In this document: one piece after another, positions 16,815-17,703 of the stretch
Numbering within the stretch: position 1 is the stretch's first letter
How the letters are laid out: every line of letters starts with the position of its first letter
Notes under the pieces: generated by a model
What the model was told of the DNA's origin: nothing
The model's database searches: none
What the model saw: the letters and a program-made list of their open reading frames with translations, nothing else
Translations under genes and position numbers: made by a program
Source: Blastococcus atacamensis
Lineage (GTDB): Bacteria > Actinomycetota > Actinomycetes > Mycobacteriales > Geodermatophilaceae
DNA length: 45,519 nt
Reading direction: 5' to 3'
NCBI RefSeq assembly: GCF_002938425.1
Contig: NZ_POQU01000020.1
Location: 1 to 45,519 of the forward strand

Positions 16815-16976
16815 GTGGACGTCGAGGCCTTCTGGCCCCTGGTCGACGCCTCCCGCGCCGGGCTGGACCTGACGGACCCCGAGGCCGCCGTCGACGAGCA
16901 GCTCGACTCCCTGGCGCTGGCACTGACCGAGCTCTCGGACCGTCGTCTTCTCGCCTTCCAGGAGGCTCAGGAGCGG
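16815..16976 (+). pseudogene. truncated DUF4240-like gene fragment
   Basis: GTG 16815 begins MDVEAFWPLVDASRAG followed by DEQLDSLALALTELSDRRLLAFQEAQ, which matches the first ~50 residues of DUF4240 proteins. The rest of that domain, including the usual YTWDLWGAAYLINGGCSDDGF-like region, is missing. The reading frame turns into antisense of the redoxin gene and stops at 17126. This looks like a 5' remnant cut by a deletion or insertion junction near 16970. Confidence 0.6.
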
Positions 16977-17626
16977 TCCGGTGGCGGGTGCTCGGCGCGC
17001 CACTCGTCGAAGGCGGCGAGGAAGGACTCCGCCATCTCCTTCTCGGCGACCAGCTGCTCGCGGTCCCGGTCGTCCACCATCCGCTCGCTCAGCGCCATCA
17101 TGTTGAACCGGATGGCGCGGAAGTAGGGAATGAACGACGCCGGCGTGAACGCCCGCTTCGAGGGATGGGGCTCGACGCCCTCGGGCGCCCACTCGACGGC
17201 GGGCACCGGGTCGAGTGCGATGCCCTCGAGCGCGCCGAGCACCGGTTCGTCGTCCGTCCGGTCGGTGAAGTCCCGGGACAGCTCGCGGAAGACCTGGCGT
17301 CCGTCCGGGGCCACCGCGACGATGATCGGCCGGAAGATCGACGCGTCCTCGTCCCAGGCGCCGAGCGGCTTGGCGAGGCGTTCCCCGTCGGGGTCGCTGA
17401 CCCAGCGGAAGGGCAGGTGCCACGTCCGGTTCATCGCCAGCTGTACCTCCGGCGGGTCGACGGAGGCGAGCACGACCTCGGTGCCGGCGTCGGCGAGGCG
17501 GGACAGGGATCGGGCCAGGCGGACCGCCTGGGCGCAGCAGTACGGCTACCAGTCGCCCCGCAGCCCGACCAGCAGCAGGGCGGCGCGCTCGTCCGAGCGC
17601 AGGGCGAGGAGATCGGCGGCGTCCAT
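16967..17626 (-). CDS. redoxin-family (AhpC/TSA-like) protein with in-frame UAG at the catalytic position; probable UAG-encoded selenoprotein
   Basis: Reading from ATG 17626, the frame is MDAADLLALRSDERAALLLV, then GLRGDW, then TAG at 17548-17546 (codon 27), then PYCCAQAVRLARSLSRLADA and a thioredoxin-fold body ending at 16967; 219 residues if UAG is decoded. In redoxins the WCPYC motif carries the reactive cysteine, and UAG sits exactly in its place, giving U-P-Y-C. Coding character is equally good on both sides. A hairpin with a GGUC loop follows within 17 bases. UAG-selenocysteine has been reported in Geodermatophilus and Blastococcus. A Cys-to-UAG pseudogene would need two base changes. 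A shorter frame from 17473 would lack the active site. The next in-frame upstream codon triplet series contains TAG, so ATG 17626 is the natural start. Role inferred: thiol/selenol peroxidase or reductase. Confidence 0.78.
17515..17531 (-). promoter_or_regulatory. SECIS-like hairpin just after the in-frame UAG of the redoxin gene
   Basis: On the coding strand CCAGGCG-GUC-CGCCUGG forms a perfect 7-bp stem. The apical sequence can be read as GGUC closed by C-G pairs, similar to the GGUC loop of the E. coli fdhF SECIS. The conserved loop GU falls at bases 25-26 counted from the U of UAG; in fdhF it is at 23-24. Position, size and loop fit a bacterial SECIS that recruits SelB. No bulged U equivalent to fdhF U17 is obvious. 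Confidence 0.65.
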
Positions 17627-17703
17627 CCCCCGACCCTACGGACGATCCCCGCCGACCGCAGGCCGGGCTGCTGGAAAGCGGATCCGGCCGTAGCCTCCGG
17701 CGC

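Follow-up and report, generated by a model that had tools for sequence, protein, structure and literature searches.

This locus raises the question of whether a UAG codon that interrupts a redoxin frame of the soil actinobacterium Blastococcus atacamensis, at the position of a catalytic cysteine, is a stop or a codon for selenocysteine (Sec). The window, meaning the whole stretch of 45,519 nucleotides that was analysed, is one contig of a genome of 3.89 Mb (163 contigs, 99.99 % complete). The argument refers to the following features.

16967..17626, minus strand: putative UAG-Sec redoxin gene of 219 codons, with its ATG at 17626-17624 and its terminator TGA at 16969-16967
17546..17548, minus strand: in-frame UAG, codon 27, the putative Sec codon, which corresponds in alignments to the first Cys of WCPYC
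17537..17539, minus strand: Cys30, the likely resolving partner Cys of the U-P-Y-C pair, unchanged in all 18 sequences chosen
16967-17473, minus strand: truncated ORF with a GTG start, as expected from ordinary gene calling, with no Pfam match alone
17515..17531, minus strand: candidate bacterial SECIS hairpin, CCAGGCG-GUC-CGCCUGG when folded, with GGUC at 17522-17525
17633..17638, minus strand: TAGGGT, a possible -10 box (TANNNT), 7 to 12 nt 5' of the redoxin ATG

With the TAG taken as a residue, the frame running from 17626 to 16967 reads MDAADLLALRSDERAALLLVGLRGDW-U-PYCCAQ... over 219 aa and contains no other stop, the immediate codon context being GLRGDW-TAG-PYCCAQ. The preliminary description had placed the frame and the UAG at these positions, correctly; the strand, which it left unstated, is minus. 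Its claim that ordinary calling would truncate the gene also holds, the conventional ORF being that of 16967-17473 with its GTG start. The read-through frame matches the Pfam families AhpC-TSA (1.8e-11) and Redoxin (1.1e-6), and its score against PF00578, 44.5 bits, exceeds the curated cut-off of 26. The truncated ORF alone matched no Pfam family at E 0.01, and a search of the redoxin protein against NCBIfam returned no model at its cut-off. Matches to the flanking genes were found only in the closest relatives, except for an EAL-type gene that is present in a few others, so that no operon partner was found for the redoxin. The closeness of the possible -10 box to the ATG is a hint that the redoxin transcript might be leaderless. 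A TANNNT hexamer lies at most 22 nt 5' of the start in 25 of 30 redoxin orthologues.

In the window's genus, an orthologue was found in 13 of 23 genomes at E < 1e-100, a fourteenth having a weak distant match only; the 10 genomes that lack the redoxin nevertheless have a tRNA-Sec. Across the family Geodermatophilaceae it occurs in 30 of 112 genomes, the window's own included, and codon 27 is TAG in every one of these 30 orthologues. A scan of named genomes, largely the same as those of the family set, similarly yielded 19 close loci, all with TAG; Blastococcus saxobsidens DSM 44509 (L110) has the orthologue as well. When 397 genomes sampled from the order were searched, one further orthologue was found beyond the family, 54 % identical, in the genome G133, where the Sec codon is TGA and the terminator TAG. 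Four weak matches in other members of the order (28 to 34 %, E 6e-10 to 6e-9, no internal stop) were rejected as orthologues. In a class-wide sample of 394 genomes searched at E 1e-15, the matches were confined to two genomes of the window's genus, and the plasmid collection gave no redoxin match. More distant homologues carry a cysteine, the first of WCPYC, at the Sec codon position: it was found in 61 of 61 sequences, those that were left from the best 80 of 97, although one of the patterns used to fetch them contains that very Cys, so that this count is no unbiased measure of Cys dominance.

The candidate hairpin occupies nt 15 to 31 past the UAG, with GGUC at +21 to +24, and its stem is predicted to leave a loop of three bases. 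It is invariant in all 28 intact orthologues except for one C/U change that keeps the pairing, and the same hairpin is present in the UGA orthologue of G133. Within codons +1 to +11, the 11 invariant residues had a mean codon diversity of 0.077, versus 0.243 for 85 others (p 0.004 by permutation; 28 of the 30 orthologues covered). Other tests of the hairpin were negative. Its folding energy showed no excess over dinucleotide shuffles, with z -0.37, 0.32 (window redoxin) and 0.10 (UGA orthologue); no Rfam family matched the 191 bases that surround the site, the window being the only sequence searched; codon identity to the UGA orthologue was not raised in the hairpin region (6/9 versus 67/100 elsewhere); and no compensatory pair was found among the 28 intact orthologues. 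A hairpin that displays GGUC also follows the Sec UAG of a second gene of the genome, fdhA, which is described below.

The terminators of the 28 intact orthologues divide into 14 TAG and 14 TGA. Half of these mRNAs thus use UAG both at codon 27, as Sec, and as terminator, which speaks against reassignment across the genome and in favour of a signal close to the Sec UAG. Few ORFs of the window end in UAG (1 of 27 after crude filtering), as would be the case if UAG had been reassigned to Sec throughout the family, with no need for a SECIS; this is nevertheless very improbable in the face of the 14 orthologues with both uses and of the hairpin found after the Sec UAG in both redoxin and fdhA. The terminator usage argues instead for a UAG that is recoded locally. 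An equally small likelihood attaches to the idea that UAG mainly terminates and that the downstream part is a separate product made from the internal GTG at 17473. The open ORF of 16967-17473 would allow it, but codons 28 to 51, which lie between the UAG and this GTG, are conserved at the protein level, and no domain can be recognised in the truncated product.

Apart from the TAG, the frame is intact in 28 of the 30 orthologues, and the decay with random stops that might be expected of a dying gene was not seen in the relatives. From codon 40 on, dN/dS has a median of 0.33 and ranges from 0.125 to 0.580 over the 378 pairs of the 28 intact genes, values that indicate purifying selection on this part of the predicted protein. 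The two remaining orthologues, L065 and L066, belong to different genera (g9 and g2) and carry an identical deletion of 1 nt, in a CCC run some 14 nt past the UAG, the remaining frame being preserved; compared with the intact genes, they have median dN/dS values of 0.33 and 0.27. A pseudogene or a sequencing error, i.e. a nonsense mutation or a miscalled TGC or TGT, might be suspected from this nearby frameshift in 2 of 30 orthologues and from the absence of the gene in 10 of the 23 genomes of the genus. However, the identical TAG recurs in all 30 orthologues, which come from separate assemblies, the frame beyond it is open in all but two and selectively constrained, and the codon is TGA in a genome with a UCA tRNA-Sec, all of which makes decay or error extremely unlikely. 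Since the same codon is found in all 30 and the median dN/dS is 0.33, the TAG cannot be put down to chance.

The genome possesses a machinery that could decode it. The selA, selB and selD genes and a tRNA-Sec, for which the preliminary description had proposed a search, are all present, close together on one other contig. SelA matches TIGR00474 with 425 bits and SelD matches TIGR00476 with 388 bits, while SelB scores 269.6 bits against a cut-off of 242.25 and comprises the GTPase, the SelB beta-barrel and the winged helix SelB-wing_3. The tRNA-Sec beside selA is full-length (RF01852, 65.8 bits), and its anticodon, CUA, pairs with UAG. ARAGORN calls this tRNA (L001:2893-2988) a tRNA-Pyl, a trap for automatic annotation. 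That label is what would favour a reading of the UAG by an ordinary suppressor tRNA or as a pyrrolysine codon, which is hardly credible for a full-length tRNA-Sec located beside selA, selB and selD, in a genome whose UAGs sit at a catalytic Cys position and at the Sec site of a formate dehydrogenase. The locus is thus one in which ordinary gene calling truncates the gene and a common tRNA finder mislabels its tRNA.

That formate dehydrogenase provides a second UAG-Sec gene. A search of the genome with the Fdh-alpha model gave eight matches, none over the cut-off, and one of these frames has an internal stop, a TAG in the context NQARI-TAG-HSATVPGLG. When read through, the protein scores 1872.6 bits against NF041513, over the cut-off of 1400. 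Its Sec UAG is followed by a hairpin with GGUC at +19 to +22. A fragment of fdhA matches 100 of the 112 family genomes, and the internal stop is TAG in all 98 whose match spans the Sec residue, the matches in G033 and G079 being partial and falling short of it; the Sec site itself was inspected in 30 of the family loci. Among these 30, the hairpin GGUGCCC-GGUCU-GGGUGCC shows a compensatory change from G.U to U-A in two, L227 and L237, and a G-C pair instead in L239. In all 30 of these fdhA loci (L214-L243), ATA stands directly before the Sec UAG, compared with 26 of the 961 other Ile codons of these frames, the loci being related and not independent; this rare codon may be part of the fdhA recoding context. 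In the UGA-type fdhA of G133, ATT precedes the Sec codon. The formate dehydrogenase of G079 is represented by two partial matches only, one of which contains two TGA stops, and is perhaps decaying.

Codon and anticodon agree wherever the redoxin was found. A CUA tRNA-Sec is present in all 23 genomes of the genus and in all 17 other family genomes that bear the redoxin. In G133, in turn, the tRNA-Sec has the anticodon UCA and the fdhA Sec site is TGA, in line with the TGA of its redoxin. Aligned with its relatives, the redoxin codon is therefore TAG in 30 of 30 family genes and TGA in the single orthologue found together with a UCA tRNA-Sec. Of the 24 genomes in the family of G133, 10 have a completeness of 90 % or more with no more than 5 % contamination; the redoxin was found in G133 alone. 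In a tree, the UGA orthologue lies on a long branch; it is not firmly placed and not separated from the UAG clade.

Both anticodons occur in the Geodermatophilaceae. A pattern search for tRNA-Sec in the 112 family genomes found a match in 108, with CUA in 101 and UCA in 7; the four without a match are all incomplete. The seven UCA genomes (G066, G068, G069, G070, G072, G073 and G074) belong to genera g5 to g7, all members of which are among the 12 genomes without an fdhA match. ARAGORN confirms UCA in six of the seven; in G074 the stretch ends with the contig and gives no tRNA call. The pattern occurs twice in each of G072 and G074, both times with UCA and on different contigs. In G072, 116 bases separate the second copy from the end of its contig and ARAGORN makes no call there; in G074, one copy ends with its contig. 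The duplicates are probably assembly fragments. As CUA and UCA are both found inside one GTDB family, a switch would have occurred there, presumably from UGA to UAG. It may be imagined that the Sec codon tracks the tRNA-Sec of its host as a unit, that the switch took place in the family, and that the gene of G133 was perhaps moved in, its codon reverting, but this composite scenario is tentative and, taken whole, rather doubtful. With both tRNA-Sec states in one family, two marker genes and a genome of the UGA type outside it, the sequence of events can be put to a direct test, and so can the question of whether the hairpin is needed.

The predicted structure is compatible with a reactive residue at codon 27. 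The AlphaFold2 model of the redoxin, built with an 18-sequence alignment, has a pLDDT of 94.4 and a pTM of 0.89. Foldseek comparisons with the PDB gave peroxiredoxins such as AhpE and AhpC as best matches (E about 1e-6, query TM-score about 0.5), and nearly all of the best 50 are named peroxiredoxin, AhpC or AhpE. Residue 27 is situated just before or at the start of a helix formed by residues 28-39, and the model thus has a thioredoxin-type fold with the reactive residue at a helix N-terminus. Both residue 27 and residue 30 are invariant in the 18 chosen sequences. The peroxiredoxin motif PxxxTxx(C/U), as given in the available text of PMC13188914, is absent, residues 20 and 24 being V and G; the protein is therefore classed as peroxiredoxin-like with a UxxC site rather than as a canonical Prx. 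Its mature form is probably a peroxidase or an oxidoreductase of the thiol/selenol type, which would reduce a peroxide or a disulfide.

Altogether, the sel machinery, the CUA tRNA-Sec, the TAG and TGA codons of the relatives and the second UAG-Sec gene support the reading of the preliminary description. We hold with high confidence that the gene encodes a peroxiredoxin-like selenoprotein of the AhpC/TSA superfamily with a U-x-x-C active site, and B. atacamensis very probably reads its active-site UAG as selenocysteine, as judged from genomic data. The following course of events may be proposed. SelB carrying Sec-tRNA(CUA) would bind the GGUC loop of the redoxin hairpin and deliver Sec at the UAG against the competing release factor 1; UAGs that lack a hairpin of this kind would still terminate. 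In the finished protein, Sec27 would attack the substrate and Cys30 would resolve.

The proposed signal can be compared with the SECIS of E. coli fdhF, a stem-loop found soon after the stop, with GGUC in its apical loop. The fdhA of B. atacamensis resembles it, with its GGUC at +19 to +22, whereas the GGUC of the redoxin is at +21 to +24 and its loop has three bases. Mukai and colleagues are said to have described in 2016 UAG-Sec formate dehydrogenases and UGSC-motif selenoproteins in Geodermatophilus and Blastococcus. That set shares with the present genome the codon and the kind of tRNA-Sec, and its TAG formate dehydrogenase is present here, but its members belong to other protein families than the redoxin. 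There are few natural cases in which a genetically encoded amino acid has come to use another codon, and UAG-Sec is among them.

A table in the available text of PMC13188914 lists Prx-like thiol:disulfide oxidoreductase selenoproteins, which have PF00578 and UxxC in common with the redoxin; in contrast, their Sec is described there as encoded by UGA, and the putative Sec codon of the redoxin is UAG. Closer still, the accessible part of PMC5330540 records a CUA tRNA-Sec in three Geodermatophilaceae genomes, with FDH and UGSC-motif selenoproteins as reported earlier, and, in 2017, a Sec-TAG selenoprotein of the AhpC type, together with a bSECIS, in Blastococcus saxobsidens DD2. As far as that text goes, the DD2 gene shares with the redoxin the bacterial family, the AhpC type, the UAG at the Sec site and the CUA tRNA-Sec, its downstream bSECIS having a candidate counterpart in the redoxin hairpin, and is very likely the same gene. 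The redoxin is thus not a first discovery, UAG-Sec in the Geodermatophilaceae and the DD2 AhpC gene being already in print, and the preliminary description overrated its novelty because this AhpC-type UAG-Sec gene had been reported (PMC5330540). For the breadth of the distribution, the matched codon and anticodon states and the seven UCA genomes of the family, no report was found in the literature searched, which left out most subscription journals. Within the same bounds, the present comparison, in which a codon change is followed across a whole bacterial family, is wider than any found in print: the DD2 report, in its accessible part, describes the AhpC gene in one genome, and here it is traced across 112 genomes of the family.
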